Shown here: positions 37,376 through 59,790 of the stretch, piece after piece
How positions within the stretch are numbered: the stretch's first letter is position 1
Layout: each line of letters begins with the position of its first letter
Assembly (NCBI GenBank): GCA_016180645.1
Contig: JACPAV010000020.1
Span: forward strand, 1 to 64,000
Direction: 5' to 3'
DNA length: 64,000 bases
Source: Nitrospirota bacterium
GTDB taxonomy: Bacteria; JACPQY01
The notes under the pieces: model-generated
Told to the model about the DNA's origin: nothing
Seen by the model: the letters and a program-made list of their open reading frames with translations, nothing else
Database searches by the model: none
Position numbers and translations under genes: made by a program

Positions 37376-38892
37376 CATGGGTGTTTCGCGAGCACCGAGG
37401 GAGGCGGCTGGGCGCCGGCCTCAAGGAGAACATCGACGGGGCGGATTGCACCATAGCGCACCTGCTCAATCACCCAGGCTTTCTTGGTGCGTTCGTAGGC
37501 GGCCACCTCGTTCAGAAGTTCAACGAGCGCCTGCCTGAAGATGTCATGGTAGTCTGAAAGTTTCCCGACGTTGCCCTCCAGAACGCCAAGATCGGTCTGA
37601 ACGGTCTGGATGAGCGCGCGGAGCTCCTCTTTGGCTCCCGTCTGAAGCTGGAGCGTGTCGTTGGGGACGGACTGGCCGGCGGCTTCGGGAAAGATGTGGG
37701 CGCGGTTGGCGGCCGTGAGAACGGCCTGGGTGCGTCTCAAGACGACGAAATTCGCCAGGTGTTCAGCGACGATGTCTTTGGCGAGAAAACACAAGCGGTC
37801 GAACTCGTCGTTGTGGGTTTCGGCGTTGGCGCGACAGAGCGCGGCTCCATAGTAGGTGAGGGAACCAAGGGGGATTTGACGGGCGTCCGCGAAGGCGCCG
37901 TCGCAGACTCCACCGGGCATGAGGGGGGTGTCGGAGCCGAAGGTTTTGGTCGTGCCGTAGACGGTAAGGCTGAGACCTGAACGACCCCCGGGTACGGAAT
38001 AGAGCTTTTCCAGTTCGGCCCGGGCGCCATCGGGCCCTACAATGGACGGATTGGCGGCGATCCGGTCCACGGTGCGCGTGACTTCCTCCTTGAGGCAGCG
38101 GCGGAGCTCGCGCGTCTTATCGCCAATGGGTGTGCTCGTGGTCTGACCGGCCTCGATGGAGCTTTGCATTGGCCAAAGTTTGCGCCCCCAATTCGCCCAG
38201 ACGTTTCCGGCGATCTTTTCCATGGCTTGGTCCGCAGTGAAAGCGCCGGGGATGCCGAGTTTCTTCCACCAGTCTTCCAATGCAGAGGGGTCGCTGCAGC
38301 CGCCGGCGTCCGCGGCCTGACCTTTGCGAGCGACGCACTCGAGTCGTTTGTTGTAGTCTTTGAGGAAGGGACTGCTGGATCCTTGCGTTTCTTGAGAGAG
38401 CTTGAGGGCTGCAAACTGGGCCATTTGTTGACAATCGGCCATCTGGAAGGAGGCAACCATCGCGCCGATACGTTGCAGCTCGTCGATGGTGGAACCGACC
38501 TTGGGCAGGTGTTTCATGAGATACAGGGAAGCAAAGCCGGCGGTAGCCGGCAGACTGGAGACCACCTGGCGGAGCTGGTCGACGTTGGCGTGCTGGACAA
38601 TGAAATTGTTCACGTCGAATTGGCAACCGTTCATATGAACACCCGGCATCTGCAGACGAAAGAGCTCCGTATTGGATGGCGGCTGATCAGGAGCCCAGTG
38701 CAAATTGAACGTTCGGAGATCCGTGTCCCCCGAGGCGCTTCCCGATCCATACCAAGGGGGCCTTTTGTCGGGGGTGCGACCATAATCAGTCGCGAAGGGT
38801 TCCGCATGGGCCGGAGGAACGGGCGCCACCAAAACGAGAAACGCCGTCGCGAGGCCGAACGAGACGAGAAGGATGCGACGCAAAGACCCCAT
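37375..38892 (-). CDS. traH: TraH-like F-type conjugation protein
   Basis: A periplasmic or outer-membrane-associated protein of about 505 residues. A signal peptide (RRILLVSFGLATAFLVLV...AHA) is followed by TraH-like features: GCQFDVNNFIVQHANVDQL, NVWANWGRKLW, a regular set of cysteines and a long C-terminal helical region. TraH takes part in pilus extension and mating-pair formation together with TraF and TraU, both present here. The ATG at 38892 (MGSLRR) is made by a family A repeat, so the repeat gives the basic n-region of the signal peptide. A GTG at 38991, at the end of a family D repeat, is in frame and may be the older start. The gene ends at another family D copy. Confidence 0.7.
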   Translation of the reverse strand: MGSLRRILLVSFGLATAFLVLVAPVPPAHAEPFATDYGRTPDKRPPWYGSGSASGDTDLRTFNLHWAPDQPPSNTELFRLQMPGVHMNGCQFDVNNFIVQHANVDQLRQVVSSLPATAGFASLYLMKHLPKVGSTIDELQRIGAMVASFQMADCQQMAQFAALKLSQETQGSSSPFLKDYNKRLECVARKGQAADAGGCSDPSALEDWWKKLGIPGAFTADQAMEKIAGNVWANWGRKLWPMQSSIEAGQTTSTPIGDKTRELRRCLKEEVTRTVDRIAANPSIVGPDGARAELEKLYSVPGGRSGLSLTVYGTTKTFGSDTPLMPGGVCDGAFADARQIPLGSLTYYGAALCRANAETHNDEFDRLCFLAKDIVAEHLANFVVLRRTQAVLTAANRAHIFPEAAGQSVPNDTLQLQTGAKEELRALIQTVQTDLGVLEGNVGKLSDYHDIFRQALVELLNEVAAYERTKKAWVIEQVRYGAIRPVDVLLEAGAQPPPSVLAKHP

Positions 38893-38980
38893 GGCGAATC
38901 CGATCGTCGTCCCGGTGCCGATCCTCATACCCTTCCGATCACCGTCCCCGGAGGGGGCCGGAGCGAAGCGAAGGGGGCGC
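38875..38980. repeat. Family A module (long variant) at the TraH start
   Basis: The unit carries an inner insertion (CGTCCCGGTGCC...CACCGTCCCCGGAGG) also seen at 46512-46670. On the minus strand it encodes the start MGSLRR of TraH and in-frame codons upstream of it. Confidence 0.78.
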
Positions 38981-46101: not shown

Positions 46102-46964
46102 GCGTCGTCGGGGTGGTGCAGGATCACTGGCGCGTTTTCCACTCAAGTGTATTGGGTCAGGGCGGATGGATTCCTGTCGCGCACTCGGGCGGGCTGCTGT
46201 GGCTCAGTCTCTCGCCCGGTCTGGGCTTCCTGATGCTGTGCCTTGGCGCCGCCAGCCGCGCGCGCGGCCGGCGGGGAACGGGGTTATGGGTGAACCTGGC
46301 GTTGAACCATCTGGTGCTGGGAGTTTCGTACTGGGCGCTTGTGGGTCTCAGGATCCACGGCGCACTGATGGAGTCCGCCGGATTTGGGGGAGAGATGGTG
46401 GCTCTGGAAGTCCTGCTCCTGAGCGGACTGGTCGGAGTTCATTACTACTACCGGCAAGCGGGTCGACCGAACGCTACGGTGGTTGAGGAGTGGGAGGCCG
46501 GGATGGGTCTGACGACGCAAGGCCCCCATGATTCTTCATCTCGCGACGCGAAGATCCCATGTCGATTCCTGTCGTCGTCCCGGTGCCAATCCCCATCGCT
46601 TCCAATCACCGTCCCCGGAGGGGGGCCGAAGCGGAGCGAAGGGGATCGTCCGTGGAGCGGAGCGGAGGGGACGAAGGCGCAAGCCCCCGTGCGCTTCTGG
46701 GTGAGGTGCGTCTGTTGGGTGTACTTGGTCCTTCCGGCGGTGCTGTATCTCGCAGTCCGCGCGAGGCGGGGTTGGGGTGCTGGGCGGGGCGGCGATGCTG
46801 AGATCCCACGATCCTTCCACTCACGACGCCAAGACCCCATGGCGAATCCGCCCGTCGCCCCAGAAGCGGAGCGAATGGGGTCGTCCCTGGAGCGGAGCGG
46901 AGGGGGCGGCGGCGCGGATGATTTGCGGTTGACGCCTGAAGAGCGGGGATACGATGTGGCTTGA
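46098..46964 (+). CDS. Unknown membrane protein with two compound repeat insertions
   Basis: A 288-residue protein with four likely membrane helices (GLLWLSLSPGLGFLMLCLGA, VNLALNHLVLGVSYWALVGL, VALEVLLLSGLVGVHYYY and WVRCVCWVYLVLPAVLYLAV). Between helices 3 and 4, and again near the C-terminus, long runs come from compound family A repeats (TTQGPHDSSSRDAKIP and DPMANPPVAPEAERMG). About a third of the protein is repeat-derived. It is coupled to traU by ATGA overlap and to the next gene by overlap, so it is in the transfer operon. I recognise no family. Confidence 0.6.
   Translation: MSVVGVVQDHWRVFHSSVLGQGGWIPVAHSGGLLWLSLSPGLGFLMLCLGAASRARGRRGTGLWVNLALNHLVLGVSYWALVGLRIHGALMESAGFGGEMVALEVLLLSGLVGVHYYYRQAGRPNATVVEEWEAGMGLTTQGPHDSSSRDAKIPCRFLSSSRCQSPSLPITVPGGGPKRSEGDRPWSGAEGTKAQAPVRFWVRCVCWVYLVLPAVLYLAVRARRGWGAGRGGDAEIPRSFHSRRQDPMANPPVAPEAERMGSSLERSGGGGGADDLRLTPEERGYDVA
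46512..46670. repeat. Compound family A repeat inside the 288-residue membrane protein gene
   Basis: Two or three A units in tandem, including the long variant seen at the TraH start (CGTCCCGGTGCC...CACCGTCCCCGGAGG). All are read through in frame. Confidence 0.75.
46791..46907. repeat. Second family A repeat in the same gene
   Basis: Truncated and full plus-oriented A units, read as RRQDPMANPPVAPEAERMG. That is a different frame from the module 200 bases upstream. Confidence 0.75.
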
Positions 46965-49203
46965 TCTCCTTGCGTTTTATAAGAGGTGGATCCGCGTCTT
47001 CTCGGAGGCTATTCCTTGGGCGCTAACAAAGGGAGACTGGAAGGACGTTCTACATGTCATGGCGTTGAGCGTGTGTTCGGTGGGATTTGTGGTGGGTGTT
47101 CGCCTTCTTCGAAAGTCTTGTTCGAATGGCGACGGTGCCACGATGGCAGACCGTACCCGGAGGTCCATGGATGGACCGGGAGGGTGCGGGCGGCGGAGGG
47201 CCGTCCATCGTTTCTCGTACCCGCTCGCGCAGTGCCTCATCAGTACAGGTCTGGTGTACTGGGTATTTCTCTGGTTCGGATGGGGAGGGATCTTCATGGG
47301 CTACCCATCCATTTTCGCCGGGGTAATGATCGTGTACGCGGGTACGGCGCTGCTGCATCCAAGACTTCACTACCTGCTGATTGGCCAAAAGCTCATGGAT
47401 GAATTTGCCATAACCGTGCTCTACCCGTGGTATCGGGCCACGGGCAGACCGGTCCTAACGGATCCCGGATTCGCCGTCCGGTTTGTGTCTATGGCAATTC
47501 CGCTGTCGCGCGCCGCGAGGTATGTCGTGGGGGAAATACTCAGGGATCGGAAGGCGGATTCCGGAGAAAACGCGTTTGCGTTTTGTCGACGCCTCTACAA
47601 GGAAAGCCTCGACCCATCGCGTCGGGGCGTCCTGAAGCGGCACCGGACGCCGGCAGGGTCGCCCCCTCCGCTCCGCTTCGGGGACGATGAGTGGAAGGAT
47701 CATGGGATCTCAGCATCGCCGGCTGGGAGTCATTCGCCCACGTCACCCTCCGCCGCCCTCCATGGCGCTCCGGGTACGGTCGGCCATCCTGGCACCGCAG
47801 TCGCGGTCCACGATGAAAAGACAATGGAAATTGATAGACAGCGCGAGGTCAGGGGTGAGGGGCCGCAGAGGGCGGCTTCCGTAGGGTCCACCCTTGAAAA
47901 GGCGTCGAGGCCGGAGGGGACCGCGAGTGAATCGGAGCGCGCACCTCGGCGTACCAGTGAACCTGCCCGCCGGCAGGACGCCGAAGGGGTGCCGGACCTT
48001 CCTTCGCCCGCCGTAGCGGGCTTCGCGAAGGCGGGAGCGGCCAGGATGGCCGACCCGGCCCGAAGCGGAGCGGAAGGGGCGAAAACAGCGGGCGATGGGG
48101 AGATCAGGGGTCCGCTGAAAGAGTTGGAACTGGAACTCGGGGCGAAGGAACCGTGGGTGGGCACGACTCTGCGGTATCTGACGGAAGAGCGCGTGCCTTT
48201 CCCGATGAGTGGTGAGGAGCGCGTTGAGGATCTGTTCCGGAGATCCCAGTGCCTCACGTGGAGCATTGCACGCCAGATCGGGAACGTTTCCGAGAGCGGC
48301 CGGTATGCCTCCATCACGCAAAGGATCATGTCTCGGCACAAGGGGGCGCGCATCATTACGATCCCCCCCGAGGGTCCGGGGCGGCCACTGGAGGTTCTAT
48401 TGGGGGTGGGCGCAAAGTCGGTTGATGATCCGGAATTCGTTCATTGGCTGGGAACGGGATTCCTGATGGCCGCGGTAATCCGTGAGGCGAGCGTAGCCGG
48501 AGGGTGGCGTGTGGTCATGCTGTGCCGGGAGAGGACCGTTACGCCGGCGTTGGATGAAAATGATCGGGGGACGGAGACGCACGGGCAGTTAAAGAATAAA
48601 TTCGAGCAGTACAGGGAAGTGCTCCGCTGGGTTCCCGGAGCGACATTGGTGTGGGTCACGAACAGTGAGGCGCGGGCGCTGGGGATCCTCGAGGACGCCG
48701 CGGCGGTTCTTCCGCCGGAAATGGTTTCCCGAGTATTGGTACGGGCCATGGTCGGGAGGGAGTCGGTTCTGCGTCTTGGCGGAAACGCGGCTCCGGTTGT
48801 GCTCGGGCACCTGTCGGTTCGGATGCCCACCGGTGAGACAAGGCGGGAGATTCATCTGCTCCATGACAGACGAGCTGGGGAACGTGGGCCGGGCGGCGAC
48901 AGTGTTAGACCTTTGGTGGCTCTACCCACGGCGAAAGGAGACAGGGTTGTCATGGAGAAGAGCCAACCCCCGAGTCCCACAAACACAAACGGAGAGAGTG
49001 TCGACGTTGTGGCGTACGTGACTGGCAAGGATGGAGAGAAATCGGCGGGCCAACTCCCACTGCAAGAAACGGGTGGCAGCACGGAGCGGCCGCGGGCTGC
49101 GTTGCACCCAGGCTACATGGAGCACCCTTGCGAAGTGGGTAGGCTGGTTTTCCCGGGTTACGTGCGGTTGGACGCCGCTGAAGGGACGGGAGTTCGTGCA
49201 TAG
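46954..49203 (+). CDS. Unknown transfer-operon membrane protein with four repeat insertions
   Basis: A 749-residue protein. The first 260 residues include three or four membrane helices (VMALSVCSVGFVVGVRLL, LISTGLVYWVFLWFGWGGIF and FAGVMIVYAGTALLH). The middle (about 230-380) is largely repeat-derived and low in order. The C-terminal 350 residues form a soluble domain (TLRYLTEERVPFPM, SRHKGARIITIPPEGPGRP, EASVAGGWRVVMLCRERTV). Family B, A, reversed B and C modules lie in this one gene, all in frame. The start overlaps the preceding stop. DotA- or TraG-like roles cannot be shown. I recognise no family. Confidence 0.6.
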   Translation: MWLDLLAFYKRWIRVFSEAIPWALTKGDWKDVLHVMALSVCSVGFVVGVRLLRKSCSNGDGATMADRTRRSMDGPGGCGRRRAVHRFSYPLAQCLISTGLVYWVFLWFGWGGIFMGYPSIFAGVMIVYAGTALLHPRLHYLLIGQKLMDEFAITVLYPWYRATGRPVLTDPGFAVRFVSMAIPLSRAARYVVGEILRDRKADSGENAFAFCRRLYKESLDPSRRGVLKRHRTPAGSPPPLRFGDDEWKDHGISASPAGSHSPTSPSAALHGAPGTVGHPGTAVAVHDEKTMEIDRQREVRGEGPQRAASVGSTLEKASRPEGTASESERAPRRTSEPARRQDAEGVPDLPSPAVAGFAKAGAARMADPARSGAEGAKTAGDGEIRGPLKELELELGAKEPWVGTTLRYLTEERVPFPMSGEERVEDLFRRSQCLTWSIARQIGNVSESGRYASITQRIMSRHKGARIITIPPEGPGRPLEVLLGVGAKSVDDPEFVHWLGTGFLMAAVIREASVAGGWRVVMLCRERTVTPALDENDRGTETHGQLKNKFEQYREVLRWVPGATLVWVTNSEARALGILEDAAAVLPPEMVSRVLVRAMVGRESVLRLGGNAAPVVLGHLSVRMPTGETRREIHLLHDRRAGERGPGGDSVRPLVALPTAKGDRVVMEKSQPPSPTNTNGESVDVVAYVTGKDGEKSAGQLPLQETGGSTERPRAALHPGYMEHPCEVGRLVFPGYVRLDAAEGTGVRA
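47134..47190. repeat. Family B module, copy 1
   Basis: Contains TGCCACGATGGCA and the hairpin GGTCCATGGATGGACC. The junction GGCAG-ACCGTACCC is intact here, whereas in copy 2 (51148-51260) a family A module splits it. Confidence 0.8.
47660..47719. repeat. Family A module in the 749-residue protein gene
   Basis: A minus-oriented unit, read as PPPLRFGDDEWKDHGISAS. Confidence 0.82.
47743..47806. repeat. Family B module, reversed copy
   Basis: The reverse complement of the B pattern (CTCCGGGTACGGTCGGCCATC), read through in frame. Confidence 0.72.
47962..48060. repeat. Family C module with nested palindrome
   Basis: Begins GCCCGCCGGCAGGACGCCGAAG and ends GGCCAGGATGGCCGACCCGG, with an inner hairpin CCTTCGCCCGCC...GAAGGCGGG. 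It encodes RRQDAEGVP, also found in the CPBP protein at the other end of the window. Confidence 0.75.
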
Positions 49204-49204
49204 G

Positions 49205-49447
49205 AAGCTAGGGACGACAAGGAGCTTCCCATATCCGTTGATGCAAGTGTTTCAAAGGATCGGTAAGAAGTACACGCTCCAGGATGTGCGACTGTTTTTC
49301 GCCCATCCGGATCTGGTCGTGGAATCACTGCGGAGTGAGACATGTGAAAGCTTGGGAGGGGTTCCGCTGGAGCTGACCGGGCTGGAGGACTATCTCCTGT
49401 TGTGTTCAGTTCGTTTCATCGGAGGAACCCGGAGGGGAAAGCGATGA
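49205..49447 (+). pseudogene. Degenerate fragment related to the coupling-protein gene
   Basis: The frame reads FPYPLMQVFQRIGKKYTLQD, then VRLFFAHPDLVVESLRS, then LEDYLL. It lines up with FLHPLMQALRSTGVRYTLKD, VRAFFAYPELAVRYLRS, LEDELL of the T4CP gene 2 kb downstream. It lacks both Walker motifs and has no start codon of its own outside an overlap with the previous gene. It is probably the remains of an older duplication or recombination of the coupling-protein gene. Its end overlaps the next ATG. Confidence 0.65.
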
Positions 49448-50577
49448 AGAAGGACAAGGATGCCGAATTCGATGTGATCTTGTGGATAGTCGTGGCCATC
49501 CTGGCCGGGGCCTACATGCTCCACTTGGCGGGGGGCCGCGTCCCGGGTCTGGAGGAGACGTTTGCCGAGGCGGACGGCAGTTTCGACGAGGCCCTCGATC
49601 TTTCGAGTGGAACCGCCCGCCTGCTGTCGGATCACGGCTGGTTTCCGGATCGATACATTGACGCTTCTTGGCCGATCCGTCGTGTGATCCTGGCGGCGCA
49701 CAAGAACGGAAGCCTCCCGGCGAAGATCAAGGTCCGATGTTTGGTTCATCTCTGGAGGCTTGCGGTTGGGGGGTTGTTCGTCGTGTTTGGCTGGCTCGTC
49801 TGGTGGGCTGTGTTTTCGGCCAAGCGAGACAAAGTATCTGAGATGGCAGGAAAAAATGTCGGAGAAATCGAAGCTGGATACCACATTTCAATGCGGCCGT
49901 GGGTCGCGTACCCGGTGCTTCGATTGACAACCAGAGGCCGACGACTGACTGGATGCGTTGTAGATACCGTCCGCACCCCGGAGATTGTGGAGTTGTGCCT
50001 TGAGATGGGGCTCCTCTATGCGAGTTACCCGGGTGAACGATTGACGTTCGGTGCAGGGCGTGACGGGGGGCGGCTTTTGGATGCGGTCGTAGAGATGTTG
50101 GAACACTTCCGCAGACGGAAGTGGCCGGCGAGTCTGCGACGGGACCGTCGCGCGCGGGATCTTGCGTTCGCGGGGGTCATGGGCGCTCCTCTGGGGAAGC
50201 TGGACTCCGACCAACGAGGGGAGGGAACCCACCACTTTCTTGGCCCCTATCATGAGCACAAGAGCAGGATGCTTATCGCCGGACTGAAGACCTTCCAGGC
50301 GCTCCCGCAGGATGACAGACAGCGGCTTCTGTTGTGGGTTGGGACCCATCATAGCGACTCTTTACCGGATGAGTGCAGGGGGGAGAGAGACATCGCGCGG
50401 TTCATCTGTCACGCGGAGAGCGACGTGGTGGCAGAGCGAGCCAGTGAGGTCCACGACCTCGTAGAGGGGACGACGGCCGAAGAGGCCGGTAGGCGAAGGG
50501 AGCAGGCGCGACGCAGGGACCCCATAACGATTCCTTCCGTCGTCCCCGGAGCGGAGCGCAGGGGGCATGGACTTTAG
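49444..50577 (+). CDS. Unknown membrane-anchored protein with possible HD-like C-terminal part
   Basis: A 377-residue protein with an N-terminal helix (DVILWIVVAILAGAYMLHLA), a second helix pair (LAVGGLFVVFGWLVWWAVF) and a cytoplasmic domain. The stretch HHFLGPYHEHKSRMLIAGLK, LLLWVGTHHSDSLPDE and ARFICHAESDVVAERA has the spaced His residues of HD-like folds, but no clean HD pair. The C-terminal 25 residues (RRRDPITIPSVVPGAERRG) come from a family A module that also carries the stop. The ATG at 49444 has GGAGGGG upstream. It is in the transfer operon between the T4CP fragment and the T4CP gene. The function is not known; the HD suggestion is weak. Confidence 0.6.
   Translation: MKKDKDAEFDVILWIVVAILAGAYMLHLAGGRVPGLEETFAEADGSFDEALDLSSGTARLLSDHGWFPDRYIDASWPIRRVILAAHKNGSLPAKIKVRCLVHLWRLAVGGLFVVFGWLVWWAVFSAKRDKVSEMAGKNVGEIEAGYHISMRPWVAYPVLRLTTRGRRLTGCVVDTVRTPEIVELCLEMGLLYASYPGERLTFGAGRDGGRLLDAVVEMLEHFRRRKWPASLRRDRRARDLAFAGVMGAPLGKLDSDQRGEGTHHFLGPYHEHKSRMLIAGLKTFQALPQDDRQRLLLWVGTHHSDSLPDECRGERDIARFICHAESDVVAERASEVHDLVEGTTAEEAGRRREQARRRDPITIPSVVPGAERRGHGL
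50507..50566. repeat. Family A module at a gene junction
   Basis: A plus-oriented unit that ends one gene and whose terminal GCAGGGGGC forms the ribosome binding site of the ATG at 50567. Confidence 0.82.
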
Positions 50578-50794
50578 CGGGTCAAGCAGTTGGAAGCGCG
50601 ATGGGGCCGAACGCACGCGTCACCTCGGCCTTGATCCGAGCGGGTGGCTGTTTGTGGCGCTCGTTCCGGTCACCTTCATAGTCGTGGATCCGAGCCAAGT
50701 CCCGACAGCGGCGTACGCGCTGCTGCTGGCCGTTGGCTCTATTGCCGTTTGGCGACGCCGCAGCAAGCAGCGAGAAGGAGGTTCCAATGTTTAG
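50567..50794 (+). CDS. Small two-helix membrane protein before the coupling protein
   Basis: A 75-residue protein with two short hydrophobic segments (GWLFVALVPVTFIVVD and AAYALLLAVGSIAVW) and a basic tail. It overlaps the previous stop and the next start (8 bases), so it is expressed with the T4CP. Small two-helix proteins often sit next to T4SS ATPase genes; a precise family is not evident. Its ribosome binding site is repeat-derived. Confidence 0.6.
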   Translation: MDFSGSSSWKRDGAERTRHLGLDPSGWLFVALVPVTFIVVDPSQVPTAAYALLLAVGSIAVWRRRSKQREGGSNV

Positions 50795-52514
50795 GTGGTT
50801 CGGACGGGGTGAAGACCGTCGGAGGCCGACGACGGGTGGCCGAAGGCTTGGAGGCTTTCCAAGGGTGTTTCAAACCGGACGAAGTGTGGAGAGTGGGAAG
50901 CCGGTCTGGATCTGGAACGATGGGGTGGAGCACGTGATAATCGTCGGCATCAGCGGGGCGGGGAAGACGACGTTTCTCAAGTACCTGGCGAATTGCATCA
51001 TCTCCGGGGGCGGGGGGTATCTCCATGTGACAGGTAAGCCGACAGATGAGGTCCTGAAAACGCTGCACTGGATGGCGGTTCACGCGGGGCGGGGAGACCA
51101 GTTCTATCTGCTGGACATCAACCGGATCGGGCGCGACGGGCCCGCAGTGCCACGATGGCAGACGACGCCGGGATCGGATGGCCATTCCAATCGTCGTCCC
51201 TGGAGCGGAGCGGAAGGGACCGTACCCGGAGGTCCATGGATGGACCGGGAGGGTGCGGACCGAGAGGCTGCGGGGGTATATGGTCGGGCGCTTCGAACCC
51301 ATCGGTGGGATCCGTTGTTCGGTTTGACGGCCCCGGAACAGGTTCAAGTGGTTCTGAGCGTGCTGGACCCCGAATATTTCCGGGGCGACAAGATCTACTA
51401 CTCGGAAATGGCCACGAGTTTCCTGCATCCGCTGATGCAAGCGCTGCGAAGCACGGGCGTGAGGTACACCCTCAAGGATGTAAGGGCTTTCTTTGCGTAT
51501 CCGGAACTGGCCGTACGGTATCTCCGGAGTGGAACGTATCGCCGCTCGCAAGGGATTCCGGAAGAGGTGAAACTCTTGGAGGACGAGCTGCTCCGATACC
51601 AGATGTCAAAAAGCAACACGGACAAGTTGGCCATGATGCTGTCGCAGATGGACGCGAACCTCCGGTTTTTTACCAGCCCTCCGTACGATGAAGTCTTCTG
51701 CCCGGCTGTCCCGGACTTTGAGATGATGGATTGCATCCGAGGGAATGCCGTGGTGGCCGTGTGTCTGGCGCCCATGGGGCGGGAGGATATCGCACGGAGG
51801 TTCGGGCGACTTTTCGTGGCAAACCTGAAGGCTTCCATCGGGCGGATTCTGATGAATCTCTCGTACCAGAAGCCCGACCCTATCTTCACGGTAGCTCTGG
51901 ATGAGTTCGGCGCGTTTGCTTCTCCGCAGATGGCGGTGTTATTCGAGCAATGCCGGGAGGCGCGGGTTCGACTCATTCCCGCGTTGCAGACAATCGAGAC
52001 ATTGGAGGACCCGAGCCTGGGGTTGAATCCTTCTTTTCGGAAAAGGGTCTTCGAAAACTGCGCCGTCAAGATGTTTTTTACTCTCGGGGCGGACAGCGCG
52101 GATATCGCTCAAGGTTACTTTGGACAGACGCGCAAAACATATCGGTCGGTGAGCCGGTCGGACCAACGCGGGCTTTCGATGGCCGCGCATGGGCTTTCCC
52201 ACCTGGGTCGGAGTTTGGGCAAGGGCTGGCAGGAGGGATACCAGGAGCGGGAGGCGTGGACGGTTCCGGCTCGCGAATTCATAGGGCTCAGGAAGTGGGA
52301 GGCGATTGTGGACGAGGGAGACTCAGTGCCGCGCCGGGCGGATTTGATGCGCCTGTTTGACTGCCCGGAGGGACATGAGATGAGATTGCTGTCCCATCAG
52401 GGGCACTTTGTGGGGCGGCTGCCACAGAAAGAAGGGAGGCCCGTGGGTCCGGGATCGGTCAGCATGCTGAACATGTGGGAGTCCTGCGTGAAGCAAGTCA
52501 GGCTGCAATGCTAA
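50787..52514 (+). CDS. traD: Type IV coupling protein (VirD4/TraD family)
   Basis: A 575-residue coupling ATPase that would bring substrate to the secretion channel. It has Walker A GISGAGKTT at about residue 54 (VEHVIIVGISGAGKTTFLKY) and Walker B VALDEFG at about 368, followed by MAVLFEQCREARVRLIPALQ. That is the usual TraD/VirD4 signature. N-terminal membrane helices are missing, so the neighbouring small membrane protein may supply the anchor. Between the two Walker motifs (about residues 120-158) lies repeat-derived sequence: a family B module split by a 19-codon family A module. It is shorter than F TraD. The start ATG has AAGGAGG upstream. Confidence 0.82.
   Translation: MFRWFGRGEDRRRPTTGGRRLGGFPRVFQTGRSVESGKPVWIWNDGVEHVIIVGISGAGKTTFLKYLANCIISGGGGYLHVTGKPTDEVLKTLHWMAVHAGRGDQFYLLDINRIGRDGPAVPRWQTTPGSDGHSNRRPWSGAEGTVPGGPWMDREGADREAAGVYGRALRTHRWDPLFGLTAPEQVQVVLSVLDPEYFRGDKIYYSEMATSFLHPLMQALRSTGVRYTLKDVRAFFAYPELAVRYLRSGTYRRSQGIPEEVKLLEDELLRYQMSKSNTDKLAMMLSQMDANLRFFTSPPYDEVFCPAVPDFEMMDCIRGNAVVAVCLAPMGREDIARRFGRLFVANLKASIGRILMNLSYQKPDPIFTVALDEFGAFASPQMAVLFEQCREARVRLIPALQTIETLEDPSLGLNPSFRKRVFENCAVKMFFTLGADSADIAQGYFGQTRKTYRSVSRSDQRGLSMAAHGLSHLGRSLGKGWQEGYQEREAWTVPAREFIGLRKWEAIVDEGDSVPRRADLMRLFDCPEGHEMRLLSHQGHFVGRLPQKEGRPVGPGSVSMLNMWESCVKQVRLQC
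51148..51260. repeat. Family B module, copy 2, split by a family A module
   Basis: Left part ends GCCACGATGGCAG (51161), right part resumes ACCGTACCCGG (51219). Joined, they match copy 1 at 47134. The intervening 57 bp is a family A unit. Confidence 0.85.
51162..51218 (+). mobile_element. Family A module inserted in a family B module (defines unit ends)
   Basis: It is 57 bp and, in the T4CP frame, exactly 19 codons (TTPGSDGHSNRRPWSGAEG). Because both ends can be shifted by the shared AC, a 2-bp duplication is possible. This is the cleanest view of what family A is and how long it is. Confidence 0.82.
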
Positions 52515-52539
52515 ACGGCTCGTGTTCGAAAGGCGGTGC

Positions 52540-52592
52540 CCGGACGGCGGACCGTACCCGGAGCGCCAAGGATGGCGCGAGAGGGTGCACCC
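52540..52592. repeat. Family B module, copy 3, upstream of the transglycosylase
   Basis: A diverged unit with CGGACCGTACCCGGAGCGCC and an inner AGCGCCAAGGATGGCGCG hairpin. It fills the leader of the next gene. Confidence 0.7.
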
Positions 52593-52596
52593 TGAC

Positions 52597-53361
52597 GTGA
52601 GTATGCTGTGGGGTGTGGTCTTGGCTGCGATCGTCGCTCTTGACTCGACGCAAGGACCGGATGATTCTTCATCTCGCGGCGTAAAGGCCGAACGGCCGTT
52701 CCGCTCGCCGCCCTTGGAGCGAAGCGCAGAGGGTCGTCCGTGGCTCGTGCTACGCAGCGAGGCGCCGCTTCGCAGAGTAGCAAGCGGAGCGGAGGGGACG
52801 GAGTGCCAGGATCCTTTCACACCAGCAGCGGTCGAGTTCGGTCTGTCGCCGAAGTTGCTGTACGCGATTGCAAAGGTGGAAAGTGGCGCGCGGCGAAACG
52901 CTCTAAACGTGAGAGGCAAAGGTTATCAGGGGCTGTTGCCTTCCGAAGCGGCCGGTAAGGCGCAGGTTGCCTGGCGTAGGGGGGAATCGTTTGACCTGTG
53001 CGTCATGCAGATCAATTCGCAGCATCTGGGGAAGGAGCTGGCGCGGGGAGAAGCTGTACACCTGTTGGACGCTGGCGATTGTGTTCGGCGTGGAGCACGC
53101 ATACTTGCAGAGAACTATCTCCGGACCAAGGACATCTTACGGGCAATTGCGTTGTACCACAGCCCGAATCGGGCGCGGGGCGATGCTTATGCGTTGAAGG
53201 TAATGCGTGCATGGCGGGCCATTGGGAGTGAAAGGCTTTGCGTCGAGGCGGTTGAGCCTTGGGATGGTGTTGGCAAGGTCGAAGCCCAGTCAAATAGGGT
53301 GAGTGAACCGCGCAAGAACAACCGCCAAGCGCGCCTTGTTGGTCGGGCTTCCTTCAGGTAG
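52597..53361 (+). CDS. Lytic transglycosylase (SLT domain), conjugation-associated
   Basis: A secreted protein of 254 residues. A short signal segment (MLWGVVLAAIVALD) is followed by about 50 residues of family A repeat. The SLT domain then reads LLYAIAKVESGARRNALN (with the catalytic Glu), LCVMQINSQHLGKEL and RAIALYHSPNRARGDAYALKVMRAW. It cuts peptidoglycan to let the secretion channel pass, like VirB1. It is the last gene of the plus-strand transfer arm. I use GTG 52597; ATG 52603 is two codons on. The repeat keeps the signal and the domain in one frame. Confidence 0.82.
   Translation: MSMLWGVVLAAIVALDSTQGPDDSSSRGVKAERPFRSPPLERSAEGRPWLVLRSEAPLRRVASGAEGTECQDPFTPAAVEFGLSPKLLYAIAKVESGARRNALNVRGKGYQGLLPSEAAGKAQVAWRRGESFDLCVMQINSQHLGKELARGEAVHLLDAGDCVRRGARILAENYLRTKDILRAIALYHSPNRARGDAYALKVMRAWRAIGSERLCVEAVEPWDGVGKVEAQSNRVSEPRKNNRQARLVGRASFR
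52646..52799. repeat. Compound family A repeat inside the transglycosylase gene
   Basis: Reads STQGPDDSSSRG then a rearranged unit ending AGCGGAGGGG. It separates signal peptide and SLT domain, in frame. Confidence 0.75.
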
Positions 53362-53636: not shown

Positions 53637-53918
53637 CTATCTTGAGGGCGTTCGTTTTTCCGCCTGAAGCTTTTCCTTAACCCAGCGGTTTATCAGGAAA
53701 GTGGAGGACATGCCCCGCCTTCTTGCGAGCTGCTGCACTTGCCGAGAGAGCCTTTCATCGAGGGCGCAATATGTCGTCTCCGACTGGATGTCCACGTCGA
53801 TAGAAACGGGTTTCGTATTCGGCCAATAGTCGGACAGGTCGTGCGTATCCCAGAACTCCCCGATCTCCCGATAGGACTTGGCTCCCGATAGGGAACTCCT
53901 GCCTCTCCTAGATCTCAT
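53637..53918 (-). CDS. brnA: BrnA-like antitoxin (CopG/ribbon-helix-helix type)
   Basis: A 93-residue protein with REIGEFWDTHDLSDYW, VDIQSETTYCALDERLSRQ and a C-terminal segment (RRRGMSSTFLINRWVKEKL). This is a pattern of antitoxins paired with BrnT-like toxins: an acidic toxin-binding start and a DNA-binding end. It overlaps the toxin gene by eleven bases, toxin first, as in BrnT/BrnA modules. It should neutralise the toxin and repress the operon. Confidence 0.78.
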   Translation of the reverse strand: MRSRRGRSSLSGAKSYREIGEFWDTHDLSDYWPNTKPVSIDVDIQSETTYCALDERLSRQVQQLARRRGMSSTFLINRWVKEKLQAEKRTPSR

Positions 53919-54204
53919 TTCTCCTCCGTTCGGACCGACTCATGTCTCTTGCGGATAGTATGAGGGCTTGGTGGTTTTTCTTCAACACGAAGAACGCAAT
54001 CAAGTATCGTCCGGAACGTGTGCGTCCCATGGCCTCGTACACATTCTCACCCTTGCGGTACCCCTTTTCAACGAAGCGGAATGAGGGAAGATTTGACAGG
54101 AGTTCCCGTACTTCACTTTTCTCTACGTGGTGTTTCGTGGCCAACTTGTGGACGATATCGTCGAGCCAGATAAGTCCATCGATTCTCAACCGTCCGCGGG
54201 CCAC
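53908..54204 (-). CDS. brnT: BrnT-like ribonuclease toxin
   Basis: A 98-residue protein with the BrnT layout. It reads GLIWLDDIVHKLATKHHVEK SEVRELL near the start (a Trp-Asp segment, then a helix), then RFVEKGYRKGENVYEAMGRT, RYLIAFFVL and SARDMSRSERRR. The RDM..SER ending is characteristic. BrnT folds like RelE-type RNases and cuts mRNA. The start is GTG at 54204, three bases after the stop of the giant recombinase-lipoprotein frame, so this module is directly downstream of it. A TTG a few codons later could be the start instead. Confidence 0.75.
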   Translation of the reverse strand: MARGRLRIDGLIWLDDIVHKLATKHHVEKSEVRELLSNLPSFRFVEKGYRKGENVYEAMGRTRSGRYLIAFFVLKKNHQALILSARDMSRSERRRNEI

Positions 54205-54207
54205 GGA

Positions 54208-57200
54208 TTACGGCAGGTTCGTAACGGGGACGGGGGTGAGGCGGTTGACGGTGGTGCCGTCGCCGAGCTGGCCGAAATCGCCGCGTCCCCAGCATTTGAC
54301 CGCGCCGTCGGAAAGAAGGGAACAGGTGTGAGAGGCTCCCCCCGCGACGGCCACACCGCCCGAAAGGGAAGACACGGCGATGGGAGTCAGGCGATTAGCG
54401 GTCGTCCCGTCCCCAAGCTGACCGTAGCCATTGTTCCCCCAGCATTTCACCGTGCCGTCGGAAAGAAGGGAACAGGTGTGAGAGGCGCCCCCCGCGACGG
54501 CGACAGTTCCCGACAGGCTGCTCACGGCCACGGGGGTCGATTTGTCCGCCGCCGTCCCATCCCCGATCTGACCGGTGTTATTCTGCCCCCAGCATTTCAC
54601 CGTGCCGTCGGATAGAAGGGAACAGGTGTGATCGTAGCTCCCCGCCACGGCCACAGTTCCCGACAGGTTGCTCACGGCCACGGGGTTCGATTTGTCCGCC
54701 GTCGTCCCATCCCCAAGCTGACCGAAGAGATTGTACCCCCAGCACTTCACCGTGCCGTCGGAAAGAAGGGAACAGGTGTGGGAGGTGCCCCCCGCCACGG
54801 CCACAGTTCCCGACAGGCTGCTCACGGCCACGGGGTTCGATTTGTTCACCGTCGTCCCGTCCCCAAGCTGACCGAAGAGATTGTACCCCCAGCACTTCAC
54901 CGTGCCGTCGGAAAGAAGGGAACAGGTGTGAAGCCCGCCCCCCACGATGGCCACACCGCCCGACAGGCTGCTCACGGCCACGGGGGTCGACTTGTCGGCG
55001 GTCGTCCCGTCCCCGAGTTGGCCAAAATTGTTGGCACCTCCGCCGCCCCAGCATTTCACCGTGCCGTCGGAAAGAAGCGAACAGGTGTGATTCTGGCCCC
55101 CGGACACGGCGACACCGCCCGTGAGATTGCTCACGGCCACGGGGGTCGTCTTTTGCGCCCCCGTCCCGTCCCCAAGCTGACCGTAGAGATTGTATCCCCA
55201 GCATTTCATCGTGCCGTCGGAAAGAAGGGAACAGGTGTGATTGCCGAGGTGGGCGGTGAGTCCTTCGCGCCACGGCCGGGCAGGGGCGCCGGAGGCAGTG
55301 CCTTCGTGGAGGCGCGGAAGTTTCACGCCCATCGGGCTGGCGGGCATGGAGACGGTAACGCGAGTCGATTTGTCTACCGTCGTCCCGTCCCCAAGCTCAC
55401 CGTAGAGATTGTTCCCCCAGCATTTCACCGTCCCATCCGAGGCGAGGGCGCAGGTGTGGGAGTTCCCTCCCGCCACGGCAACCGCGCCCGAAAGGGCGGA
55501 AACGACGACCGGAGTCGTCTTGTTCGCCGTCGTCCCGTCCCCAAGCTGACCATTGAGATTGTATCCCCAGCATTTCACCTTCCCATCCGAGGCGAGGGCG
55601 CAGGTGTGGTAGATCCCTCCCGCCATGGCGACCGCGCCGGAAAGGGTGGAAACGGCCACCGGAGTCGTCTTGTCCGCCGTCGTCCCATCCCCAAGCCCGC
55701 CATACAAATTGCGGCCCCAGCATTTCACCGTTCCATCCGAGGCGAGGGCGCAGGCGTGATAGTACCCTCCCGCCACGGCGACCGCGCCGGAAAGGGAGGT
55801 GACGGTCACGGGGGTCGATTTATTGACCGTCGTCCCGTCCCCAAGCTGACCAGAGCCATTGTCACCCCAGCATTTCACCGTGCCGTCGGAAAGAAGGGAA
55901 CAGGTGTGCCAGTTGCCCCCCGCGACGGCGACAGCCCCGCTCAGCGCGGACACGGCGATCGGGGTCGATTTGCCCACCGTCGTCCCGTCCCCTAGCCGAC
56001 CGCTGCCATTGTACCCCCAGCATTTCACCGTGCCGTCGGATAGGAGGGAACAGGTGTGAATATTACCCCCCGCGACGGCGACAGCCCCGCTCAGCGTGGA
56101 CACAGCGATGGGCGTCGTCTTATTCACCGTCGTCCCGTCCCCAAGCTGACCCTCGTTATTGTCCCCCCAGCACTTCACTTTGCCGTCGGAATGAAGGGAG
56201 CAGGTGTGATTGTAGCCCCCCGCAACGGCTACAGCCGCGCTCAGCGCGGACACAGCGACGGGGGTCGATTTATTGACCGTCGTCCCATCCCCAAGCTGAC
56301 CACTGGAATTGTATCCCCAGCATTTCACCGCTCCACCGGAGGCGAGGACGCACGTGTGGTAGCCGAAGTGGGTCGTGACGACCTGCGCAATGCCGATGGT
56401 GGACCACGTGAGGGCGGATTTTTCGACGGTGTTGGATTCGACGTTGAGGGCTTCATCGCGGGCGCGGACGCGGTAGTAGACTTTGGTTCCCTGCGTGAGC
56501 GAGCCGTCGTTGTACGTCGTCGCACCGGCCGAGGTTGTGAACGTCACGCTCCAGGTGGTGGTGCAGTAGTTGGGCGTGGTGGCGCGACAGATTTGGTACA
56601 CGATCGCGCCGGAAGCGCTCACGGTGTCCGACGCCGCGCTCCATGCGAGATCAACGTTCGTTGCCGACGTTGCCGTGGCGGAGGTCAGCCCGCCGAACGT
56701 CGGCGGCGTGTTGTCGAATGTGAACGCGTTCCCCGCGCCGGGCGTTTCGATGTTCGTCACGTTGTCGCTCGCCCGGGACTTGATCGTGTATGCGCTTCCA
56801 CTGACCCACGTTGGAAGTGTGAAGGAAGAATTCCATGAGGTGGTCCCCGACGTGGCAAGCCACACAAGCCCCGCCTGCCATGCGGAAGTTCCATCCCAGT
56901 AGAAGCTGTCGGAATTCCTCTGAACGGAAAGCTGCACGGTGTTGATTCCGCTTCCGGCGCCATCCGCAGCCGTACCGGAAATGAGGGCCAGCGAACTTAG
57001 CTTCGCGTTGTTGGCGGGCGTTGTGATCGCGGACGACGGCGCCGCCGTATCCGGTTTGAAGCCGTCCGAGAACGCCCACGCGCCGAAATTGTTGACATTG
57101 TCCTTACCACGAACGCAGTGGTAGTAGGTCGTTCCATTCGTCAGCGCGAGTCCGGTGCGATTGATGTTCGTGGCCACCAGTTGCGTGGTGCCGGCCATGT

Positions 57201-59790
57201 CTCCGGTGCATGCGGTGGAACTGCTGATGTTCTGTTCATAGCCCGCCACTCCGCTACCGGCATCGCTGAATCCCGCCCAATTCGAGTCCGTTGCATTCGT
57301 AGCCGACTGAAAATCGACATCCGCCCCCGTGCCGTCGTTCACCGTTCCCGCGGTGGGGCCCGCGGTATCCAATGTGATCGTATCGGAGACCGGCGAGCTG
57401 GGGTTTCCCGCGGCATCCGCGAACGTGGCATAGACCGTTTTGGTTCCATCGCCCGCCGCCAGGGTCCAAGCCTTCGAGGTGGAATAGGTTTCGAAGGACG
57501 AATAGGACGAATTGTCGTTCGAGAAGGACATGGACGTCGCTCCCGTAGCCGAGAGGGTGAGCGTGACGGAGGTGGTGCCGGCGTAGGCCGCACCGGCGTT
57601 GATCGAGTTCGTGCCGCCCGTGGGGGGGGTCTTGTCATTGGTTTTTGAGGTCACCGGGCTCTGATTCCCGGCCGCATCGCGGGCCACGATGTGGATCAGA
57701 TCCGACGCATCCGACTGATTGTCTCCAATACTGAAGGCGGTGAACGAGCCAGCGCCCGCGGCGGTGGACTGACCGATGAGCGCGGTGAGAAGGCCGTCCG
57801 AGAACACTTTGACGGTGCTGCCGCTTTCGACCGCGCCTGCGGAACCGGAAAGCTGGTCTGCCGTGCCCGGCAGATTCATGGTAACTGTGAGCTTCGTAGG
57901 GTCCGGCGCGGTGGGGGCTGTGGTGTCGGGAGGCGTACAAACAGCTCCCTCGTCCGTGAGGCCGTCGCAATCGTTGTCTTTTGAGTCGCAGATTTCTGTT
58001 GCGGGAGATCCGGCAACGGCATCGCAGACCGTGCCGGCTCCGTCCGTTTTGCACACGTTCGTCCCCGCCCTCCCACATTCCCCGACACCCGCCGAGCACA
58101 CCTGCCCTTTGTTCGTGAAGTCCTCGTCCGTTTTCGCGTCGCAGTCGTTGTCGGCGCCGTCGCAGGACTCGACGCCGGGCGACACCGTGGACGCGCAGGT
58201 AAGCGCTCCGGATACGCATACTTGTTTGCCGGGCGCGCAGACGCCGGGTTGGGAGGAGGTACAGGAAGCGGAGGGGAGGTCTTCGTCTGTTTTGCCGTCG
58301 CAATCGTTGTCCTTGCCGTCGCAAACCTCGGCGGCGGGGACTGAGGGGAGAGCGGAGCAGCGGGTGCCCAAGCCATCGGGCTTGCAGATAACCGTTCCGC
58401 TGGCCTGGCAGGCACCCACGCCAGCGGTGCAAGGTTGGCCGAGGGAGGCCCCCCCACCCACACCCTCCCCCGCCAAGGGGGAGGGGGCAATTATGAAGTC
58501 CTCGTCGATGAGCTGATCGCAGTCGTTGTCTTTGCCGTCGCAGATTTCGGCGGAAGGGGCGCACGCGGGCAGGACGGTGAAAGTGACGGTCGCGGGCGTG
58601 GAATCTTTGTTGCCCAGCGCGTCGCTCGCGGCTACGTTCAATGTGTAGGACCCGTCCTTCGACAATCCGCCTGAGGCGGACAGGACGAATGGGGTGGAGC
58701 ACGGTTTGGGCTCGAACGATTCGGGGCCTGTGAGGGAGCAACGGAATGTGCATGACGCCTCGTTGCACGCGAACGCGAAGGTGTACGGGTCGTTCGACGT
58801 GCGACGTTCGACGTTCGACGACACCACCGTCTCCGGTGGTGTGAGGTCCATTTCCTTGATCTCGATCTTGACCGCTGCCGGCGGCGTGACGCCCGCGGCC
58901 TTGAAGTCTTCCTTCACCTTCGTTTCCAGCTTCGTCGCGAGCGACTGGAAGGCCGCTTGCGCCTGCTCCTGCGTCGGCTTGGCCTGGGACGTTGCATCGG
59001 AAGCAATCTGAACGGCCTGGTCGAGCGTGATCTTCTTGGCTCCCTCAAGGGCCGGCGTGGCCAGAACCGTGGCCACTTCCACCAAGGTGGAGACTCCATT
59101 CCCATCCAGATCGGGAAGATCCACGTCGTTGAGGGCGATGGAGGTCTCCTCGATTTGGATCTCGAAGGAGACCGAGCCTGAAGGCTCGGCTACGGAACCT
59201 GCGGAAGGTTGACCTGCGGAGCCTGAAGGCTCCGCTACGGGAGGAGGAACCTTCATCTTCACGGTCGTCCTGACCTCGACGAGCGGGACATCCTGGTGCC
59301 GGCCGGGACGGACCCGCGTGCGGAAGGTGTTCTCGCCATCACGGGCGGCTTTCTTGGGTAGAAAGAAAGTGACCTCAAACGCAAAGGCAAGCTCGCCCTC
59401 TTCTGCCTGGCGACGCGCCGCCCCCCTGACACCGCCCCTCACGCCTCCGCGGACACCGGATGCCTCCGCCGCCCGGATGCCTCCTTGAACATCACCGCGC
59501 ACTCCGCCCCGGATGCCCCCGCGGATCCCCTCGGCCACCAACTCGTCGTTGACCAGGATGTCCGCCACCACCTCATCCTGCTCGGCCACACCGTTCAGGG
59601 CCGCAGCGACCTCGGTGGAAAGAGGCACGGAAACCGCCATCGGAACGGCGTCCTCAACAGCCGCATCAAGCGTGGCAGATTGCTCGGTTTTTCTCAGGCA
59701 AGACGATAGGATTGCTGACACAACAAGGAAACAAATCCCCCGTGCGAACAGGCGGTCCCTTCGCTCTGGTCTTCCCGCCCTCCCGTGCAT
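54208..59790 (-). CDS. Lipoprotein with MopE metal-binding motifs and two RCC1 propellers (internal start)
   Basis: This reading of the same frame starts at the ATG at 59790 and gives 1860 residues. Signal peptide ending in ILSSC (Cys 31). Basic glycine repeats (GIRGGIRGGVRG) and a Cys-rich Ig-like module (FAFACNEASCTFRCSL) follow. Four MopE-like metal-binding motifs come next (CDGKDNDCD, CDGADNDCD, CDSKDNDCD), then fibronectin-like domains. The C-terminus has fourteen RCC1 repeats of the form C-x(n)-KCWG...GQLGDG. They fall into seven plus seven, separated by a unique linker (VSMPASPMGVKLPRLHEG). It is a paralogue of the lipoprotein at 7619. At least three repeat-derived insertions are visible. 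It is likely displayed on the surface. Confidence 0.72.
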   Translation of the reverse strand: MHGRAGRPERRDRLFARGICFLVVSAILSSCLRKTEQSATLDAAVEDAVPMAVSVPLSTEVAAALNGVAEQDEVVADILVNDELVAEGIRGGIRGGVRGDVQGGIRAAEASGVRGGVRGGVRGAARRQAEEGELAFAFEVTFFLPKKAARDGENTFRTRVRPGRHQDVPLVEVRTTVKMKVPPPVAEPSGSAGQPSAGSVAEPSGSVSFEIQIEETSIALNDVDLPDLDGNGVSTLVEVATVLATPALEGAKKITLDQAVQIASDATSQAKPTQEQAQAAFQSLATKLETKVKEDFKAAGVTPPAAVKIEIKEMDLTPPETVVSSNVERRTSNDPYTFAFACNEASCTFRCSLTGPESFEPKPCSTPFVLSASGGLSKDGSYTLNVAASDALGNKDSTPATVTFTVLPACAPSAEICDGKDNDCDQLIDEDFIIAPSPLAGEGVGGGASLGQPCTAGVGACQASGTVICKPDGLGTRCSALPSVPAAEVCDGKDNDCDGKTDEDLPSASCTSSQPGVCAPGKQVCVSGALTCASTVSPGVESCDGADNDCDAKTDEDFTNKGQVCSAGVGECGRAGTNVCKTDGAGTVCDAVAGSPATEICDSKDNDCDGLTDEGAVCTPPDTTAPTAPDPTKLTVTMNLPGTADQLSGSAGAVESGSTVKVFSDGLLTALIGQSTAAGAGSFTAFSIGDNQSDASDLIHIVARDAAGNQSPVTSKTNDKTPPTGGTNSINAGAAYAGTTSVTLTLSATGATSMSFSNDNSSYSSFETYSTSKAWTLAAGDGTKTVYATFADAAGNPSSPVSDTITLDTAGPTAGTVNDGTGADVDFQSATNATDSNWAGFSDAGSGVAGYEQNISSSTACTGDMAGTTQLVATNINRTGLALTNGTTYYHCVRGKDNVNNFGAWAFSDGFKPDTAAPSSAITTPANNAKLSSLALISGTAADGAGSGINTVQLSVQRNSDSFYWDGTSAWQAGLVWLATSGTTSWNSSFTLPTWVSGSAYTIKSRASDNVTNIETPGAGNAFTFDNTPPTFGGLTSATATSATNVDLAWSAASDTVSASGAIVYQICRATTPNYCTTTWSVTFTTSAGATTYNDGSLTQGTKVYYRVRARDEALNVESNTVEKSALTWSTIGIAQVVTTHFGYHTCVLASGGAVKCWGYNSSGQLGDGTTVNKSTPVAVSALSAAVAVAGGYNHTCSLHSDGKVKCWGDNNEGQLGDGTTVNKTTPIAVSTLSGAVAVAGGNIHTCSLLSDGTVKCWGYNGSGRLGDGTTVGKSTPIAVSALSGAVAVAGGNWHTCSLLSDGTVKCWGDNGSGQLGDGTTVNKSTPVTVTSLSGAVAVAGGYYHACALASDGTVKCWGRNLYGGLGDGTTADKTTPVAVSTLSGAVAMAGGIYHTCALASDGKVKCWGYNLNGQLGDGTTANKTTPVVVSALSGAVAVAGGNSHTCALASDGTVKCWGNNLYGELGDGTTVDKSTRVTVSMPASPMGVKLPRLHEGTASGAPARPWREGLTAHLGNHTCSLLSDGTMKCWGYNLYGQLGDGTGAQKTTPVAVSNLTGGVAVSGGQNHTCSLLSDGTVKCWGGGGANNFGQLGDGTTADKSTPVAVSSLSGGVAIVGGGLHTCSLLSDGTVKCWGYNLFGQLGDGTTVNKSNPVAVSSLSGTVAVAGGTSHTCSLLSDGTVKCWGYNLFGQLGDGTTADKSNPVAVSNLSGTVAVAGSYDHTCSLLSDGTVKCWGQNNTGQIGDGTAADKSTPVAVSSLSGTVAVAGGASHTCSLLSDGTVKCWGNNGYGQLGDGTTANRLTPIAVSSLSGGVAVAGGASHTCSLLSDGAVKCWGRGDFGQLGDGTTVNRLTPVPVTNLP

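Follow-up and report, generated by a model that had tools for sequence, protein, structure and literature searches.

Split repeat in the coupling protein gene

The window analyzed here is the 64-kb start of contig C20, which is 118.8 kb long and belongs to a 4.7-Mb genome assembled in 65 contigs. It contains a conjugation locus in which genes for TraC- and TraU-like proteins and a lytic transglycosylase accompany a gene for a predicted type IV coupling protein (T4CP; TraD/TraG/DotL-like; positions 50787–52514, forward strand). The T4CP assignment is based on a match to Pfam TraG-D_C (E 1.4e-5), and the best solved relative of the protein is IcmO/DotL (6sz9, E 2.6e-7). Upstream of this intact gene, at positions 49217–49402, lies a fragment coding for 62 residues that are 50% identical to T4CP residues 209–270. 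The transglycosylase gene is adjoined by a CopG antitoxin/BrnT toxin pair (53637–54204, reverse strand). At 54208–61509 (reverse strand), a 2433-aa open frame contains a large serine recombinase and a lipoprotein-like MopE/RCC1-repeat protein with no stop codon between them, and probably represents two genes.

Direct reading of the sequence bore out the nesting proposed in the preliminary description, i.e. that a repeat of family B in the T4CP gene is split by a repeat of family A. The left half of B (GTGCCACGATGGCAGA; 51147–51162, forward strand) is identical to positions 47135–47150 of an unsplit B repeat (copy 1; 47135–47189), and the right half (CCGTACCC...GGGTGCGG; 51220–51258, forward strand) is identical to positions 47151–47189; the joined halves thus match copy 1 in 55 of 55 bp. 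When copy 1 was compared with the window by blastn, the two halves were recovered as matches of 41 bp (51218–51258, 100% identity, E 9e-17) and 17 bp (51147–51163, 100% identity). The intervening segment (51163–51219, forward strand) is exactly 57 bp, or 19 codons, long. Its first 56 bases (51163–51218) match the 56-position model of family A (nhmmer, E 4.3e-14), and base 57 is position 51219, the edges being taken from 49 aligned A copies.

The triplet GAC is present at both ends of the insert, which allows four equivalent placements of the 57 bp (start at 51161–51164). The earlier proposal that A splits B at a codon boundary holds for one of these placements (start at 51162), but the family-wide edge of A at 51163 (CGACGC...) falls on codon position 2, and the boundary has no special role. 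The insertion cost B no sequence and left no target-site duplication. The T4CP ORF stays open across both repeats, and its predicted product includes the peptide TTPGSDGHSNRRPWSGAEG.

The assembly is fragmented and the repeats are GC-rich, which would favor an assembly chimera or a chance low-complexity match. The strength of the matches (41 bp at E 9e-17, and E 4e-14), the frame that is open through the nest, and the occurrence of both families in a separate record, the sister genome G001, make such an artifact highly improbable.

Family B and the order of insertion

Genome search combined with profile analysis identified approximately 14 copies of family B, of which about 12, besides the one in the T4CP gene, are full-length. 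All of these full-length copies, which are located in unrelated genes and on many contigs, run uninterrupted through the position that is split in the T4CP gene. Three unsplit copies lie in the window: (i) copy 1, on the forward strand, which represents the empty site and whose codon frame differs from that of the T4CP copy (direct reading, blastn and profile), (ii) a copy in reverse orientation within the same ORF as copy 1 (47744–47797; blastn and profile) and (iii) a copy at the start of the lytic transglycosylase ORF (52536–52587, forward strand; profile). No close T4CP orthologues that could reveal the empty site were found among the relatives searched or in a contig collection of other genomes.

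Since no other full-length B copy is split, A was inserted into B, and the order given in the preliminary description (B first, then A) stands. The opposite history, in which B originally included A and a precise deletion produced the short form, had been named there as the refuting case; a deletion between the flanking GAC triplets would indeed yield the short form exactly. It is nevertheless extremely unlikely: none of the remaining full-length B copies, which are spread over different genes and contigs, has A at this point, and A is found independently in dozens of other places, including the interior of A itself.

The B unit is 54–55 bp long, and covariation in its stem is visible at pair 4–18, which switches between C-G and T-A. 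One copy is carried by gatA (C2:338978–340537; TIGR00132, E 1.9e-183), where the net addition is 54 bp (18 codons). The corresponding 18 residues are missing from the GatA structures 4wj3 and 3h0l, to which the remainder of the protein aligns throughout (E 1e-157 or better). As judged from these alignments, B behaves as an in-frame 54-bp insert in an otherwise intact housekeeping gene. In the sister genome (84% complete), the search for gatA returned only distant amidases.

Ends, stems and abundance of family A

Iterated nhmmer searches detected 86 A matches in 352 kb, and a pattern search allowing up to three mismatches detected 57 in the genome; the copy numbers of both families rest on genome searches together with approximately 0.74 Mb of sequence stretches. 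Whereas the T4CP nest gives the ends of A, as had been expected, to within 3 nt, the family alignment fixes them: the left edge (CGACGC) is sharp and common to all 49 full copies, which terminate with GGGG plus a purine at position 57, defining a 57-bp unit. The base directly 3′ of this unit is C in 38 of the 49 copies and the next base is G in 30 of 49, a C(G) bias that could instead reflect a unit of 58–59 bp with an imprecise end. The possible 2-bp duplication (AC) suspected at the T4CP site is not a target-site duplication, as the junction repeats of the 49 copies are no longer than those of mismatched flank pairs used as a control, and no duplication above chance was detected at A.

Family A is a two-hairpin unit (stem 1, CGACG...CGTCG; stem 2, GTCCCC...GGGGRC), and both stems show covariation: at pairs 3–32 (A-T/G-C) and 4–31 (C-G/T-A) of stem 1 and at pair 39–53 (C-G/T-A/A-T) of stem 2. 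A general preference of A for hairpin target sites did not emerge clearly (p = 0.23 for stems and p = 0.045 for folds).

The view that movement or copying of A involves the whole unit gained support from near-identical copies in unrelated flanks, whose identity stops at the unit edges, and from three nests of A in A with inserts of exactly 57 bp (see below). One unsplit copy in the window (50509–50565, forward strand) is identical in 58 of 58 positions to C25:4726–4783, the flanks being unrelated.

The density of A is 23.6 per 100 kb on contigs C20 and C25 but 2.0 per 100 kb in other contigs, of which 392 kb were sampled, a difference of approximately 12-fold. C20 carries an F-like conjugation locus, and C25 carries restriction and methylase genes together with a Tn3-type transposase. 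Tandem A-like units with a spacing of 57–58 bp are present at C2:101670–101837 and C13:7267–7368 (units at C13:7267 and 7324).

The phylum is represented by two species in the genome collection, the second being that of the sister genome, which contains both A and B. Beyond this genome, the A core pattern was found in none of the other genomes of 84,980 species, and none was found in viral contigs.

Two further repeat families were recorded. The first is palindromic; its ends read ATCCCACCACCTG...CAGGTGGTGGGAT and its inner hairpins vary (C20:28217–28290, 70629–70704 and 74451–74522; C25:26357–26432 and 2774–2871). The second, also hairpin-forming, consists of nine copies of 66–98 bp with B-like loops (including C13:7176, 12431 and 15602; C20:82265 and 112503; C14:46526; C19:132161).

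Recurrent nesting

The search for other nested pairs, suggested in the preliminary description, was productive. Full 57-bp A copies were excised and the sequence was searched again; this recursive excision restored three complete A units, each interrupted by exactly 57 bp between positions 31 and 32 (E 4e-14 to 1.5e-9). They are located at (i) C20:46793–46906 (forward strand; E 3.8e-14), where an outer A (46793–46823 and 46881–46906) encloses an inner A (46824–46880), (ii) C20:29287–29400 (reverse strand; E 1.5e-9) and (iii) C15:34058–34171.

Scanning with split profiles revealed inserts in A of 102, 45, 69, 33 and 30 bp, the last three being hairpins, and gave no matches in shuffled controls; several rows that were spurious joins of a weak prefix with a neighboring intact A were left out. 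The 102-bp insert belongs to a three-level nest of 159 bp, A(57)[A(57)[C(45)]], at positions 46513–46671 (forward strand), in which the outer A holds a composite of a second A and a 45-bp sister unit, C. The sister unit also splits A between positions 37 and 38 at 38876–38977 (forward strand) and at C20:69406, and a 45-bp sister unit splits A between 31 and 32 at C25:17739. Reading by eye showed a doubly interrupted A at 52646–52798 (forward strand; 153 bp): a 57-bp A occupies the point between 31 and 32, and a hairpin unit of 39 bp forms the second interruption.

Nesting is a habit of this genome, with more than one event. The length of every one of the 13 catalogued inserts (the T4CP case included) is divisible by three. 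The segments C20:46513–46660 and C20:69290–69437 are 93% alike; comparison of the two suggests that some nests may be composites copied whole, and therefore not every nest is an independent event and the 13 inserts do not amount to 13 independent trials.

In the T4CP gene B is split between positions 18 and 19, and in the nests of A in A the outer unit is split between 31 and 32. At all four sites the insert separates the two bases that pair with positions 4 and 3 of the first hairpin, and YCGTNCC follows directly; with four sites observed, this shared target is no proven rule. It is possible, although on balance doubtful, that the genome harbors hairpin units that are related to one another but differ in length (57 and 45 bp, perhaps also 54, 39, 33 and 30 bp), all multiples of three, and that they share a single-strand mechanism that prefers the stems of resident units and thereby builds Russian-doll composites in genes. 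In that case, divisibility by three would have been selected for in the mobile families themselves.

Residence in protein-coding genes

Elements were also found in sufD and in genes for an acyl-CoA dehydrogenase and an M16-type protease-like protein, among others. Gene-borne copies of family A occur in either orientation and in several phases. Its consensus contains a TGA codon in one forward frame, and at this codon the five gene copies in that frame show TGG, TGG, TCG, TGT and TGG instead; TGA is kept in none of these five copies, compared with 13 of 17 copies read in other frames (p = 0.0075). The absence of TGA from copies in the stop-containing frame indicates, at the level of codon comparison, translation of the A inserts and selection against stops.

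The in-frame reading of the elements in many proteins might also suggest peptide cassettes spread for their encoded function. However, a single unit gives unrelated peptides from both orientations and several frames, and the DNA of B copy 1 and of the T4CP copy of B is identical yet read in different frames; what is conserved is therefore the nucleic acid and not the peptide, as is also seen in the preserved stem pairing. A peptide-level origin is thus very improbable.

Possible mode of mobilization

The explanation favored here, which takes in the observed unit ends, order and precision of insertion, in-frame residence, hairpin covariation and recurrent nesting, is that A and B very probably represent two mobile repeat families, short and non-autonomous, that form hairpins, reside in protein genes and work like Rickettsia palindromic elements (RPEs), B having entered the T4CP gene before A. 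Their fixed, frame-keeping length (57 bp for A; 54 bp net for B), open in most frames, would allow an insertion to add a loop peptide and leave the gene unbroken. The T4CP locus would then have been generated by two events: (i) insertion of B into a loop following the N-terminal part of the ATPase domain and, later, (ii) precise insertion of A into the 3′ arm of the first hairpin of B. The enzyme behind insertion may act in trans on the single-stranded form of the hairpins and would most likely be a transposase of the HUH/Y1 type, and selection would subsequently remove the copies that bring stops or frame shifts. The single-strand transposase step is an unproven best guess, to which we give less than even credence.

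The genome contains seven Y1 (HUH) transposase genes, among them genes on C5, C28, C32, C34 and C37. None is flanked by A or B: no B lies near any of the seven, and the one A in the vicinity of such a gene is approximately 1.2 kb away. Contigs C20 and C25, the densest in A, carry none of the seven. On C34, two neighboring Y1 transposase genes are each flanked by a 28-bp inverted repeat, and at C5:33610–36930 a Y1 gene lies amid GTAG-type paired palindromes (GTAGGGGAG...CTCCCCTAC) in an arrangement resembling REP/RAYT systems. The inspected Y1 genes are thus flanked by repeats of their own and not by A or B, which counts against them as mobilizers. A reverse transcriptase was rejected as mobilizer, as no such gene was found in the genome.

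An alternative that overlaps with the enzyme step of the favored explanation is that A and B are REP derivatives moved by the REP-associated Y1 transposases (RAYT/TIRYT) of the genome itself. The seven Y1 genes, the hairpins, the lack of target duplication and the short flank preference are consistent with this origin, but the repeats around the inspected Y1 genes are different ones, A has neither a GTAG tag nor the stem that defines CGTC REPs, and A is densest on contigs devoid of Y1 genes. It is accordingly a tenable but not a favored proposal.

The main rival dispenses with a transposase: the units would have spread by recombination, gene conversion or template switching at replication hairpins. 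Such a process would account for the lack of a dedicated enzyme next to A or B, for the location of the nests in hairpin stems of GC-rich, partly palindromic units, and for the tandem A-like units spaced by 57 bp (C13:7267 and 7324). Slippage or template switching would, however, be expected to give variable ends, whereas insertion is precise at the base level, flanks are unrelated and the length of 57 bp is constant over dozens of copies; this route therefore appears rather unlikely.

Comparison with known repeat systems

RPEs and the palindromic elements of Wolbachia are short hairpin repeats found in frame in intact conserved genes, housekeeping genes included, and have no known transposase (PMC3767692, PMC10969869). 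Families A (dozens of copies) and B (approximately 14) are likewise dispersed hairpin repeats with covarying stems, residing in frame in intact genes, as seen from the 18-aa insert of gatA relative to 4wj3 and 3h0l and from the avoidance of stops (p = 0.0075). In contrast to RPEs, which are approximately 100–150 bp long and occur in Rickettsiales, A and B are 57 and 54–55 bp long, GC-rich and known from a phylum with two species in the genome collection. Nesting of one unit in another with exact ends is a feature of A and B for which no RPE report was found in the cited literature (PMC3767692, PMC10969869). NCBIfam scans of seven host proteins (E 1e-5) returned no model named for RPEs. By analogy, A and B appear RPE-like in their working while differing in length, composition and lineage, and they are not filed as RPEs.

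Single-strand transposition of the IS200/IS605 type involves hairpin ends and insertion next to a short preferred sequence, with no target-site duplication. A and B share the hairpins, the absence of target-site duplication and a flank preference, but no enzyme is tied to either family and the flank preference of A is a weak C(G).

MITEs, which occasionally form in-frame fusions (PMC10969869), are also small and non-autonomous; A and B differ from them in that no terminal inverted repeats related to an insertion sequence were seen and target-site duplications are absent.

REPs are single hairpins of 20–40 bp, mostly intergenic and carrying GTAG or CGTC tags (PMC3733652). GTAG and CGTC REPs are palindromic and sometimes intragenic, GTAG-15, GTAG-23 and CGTC-1 lie inside other palindromes, and CGTC repeats, too, have no dedicated transposase (PMC3733652). 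Like these, A is palindromic and in places lies within other palindromes, but it is a 57-bp unit with two hairpins that is frequently located in genes. GTAG REPs were ruled out, as neither consensus contains GTAG. CGTC REPs are defined by a CGTC tag, an 8–9-bp stem starting with A-T pairs, a loop of 4–5 nt and a CCA-like tail (PMC3733652); A holds CGTCGTCCCC, but its stem is GC-rich, its loop is 13 nt long and a CCA tail is lacking, and this class was ruled out as well. RAYT-mobilized REPs are recognized by flanking a Y1 transposase gene, which neither A nor B does.

Nesting and in-frame residence are each known separately, REPs having been described both inside palindromes and inside genes (PMC3733652). 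The T4CP locus adds nesting that is base-exact, in frame and recurrent, with a visible order of events. How RPE-like elements enter genes without breaking them is difficult to investigate, since their exact ends and empty sites can seldom be seen; the nested copies supply base-exact ends, empty sites and the order of events within one genome, and therefore the target rule and the mobilizing enzyme become testable. In several families the unit length is a multiple of three, and in-frame hairpin parasites are shown to exist far outside Rickettsiales.
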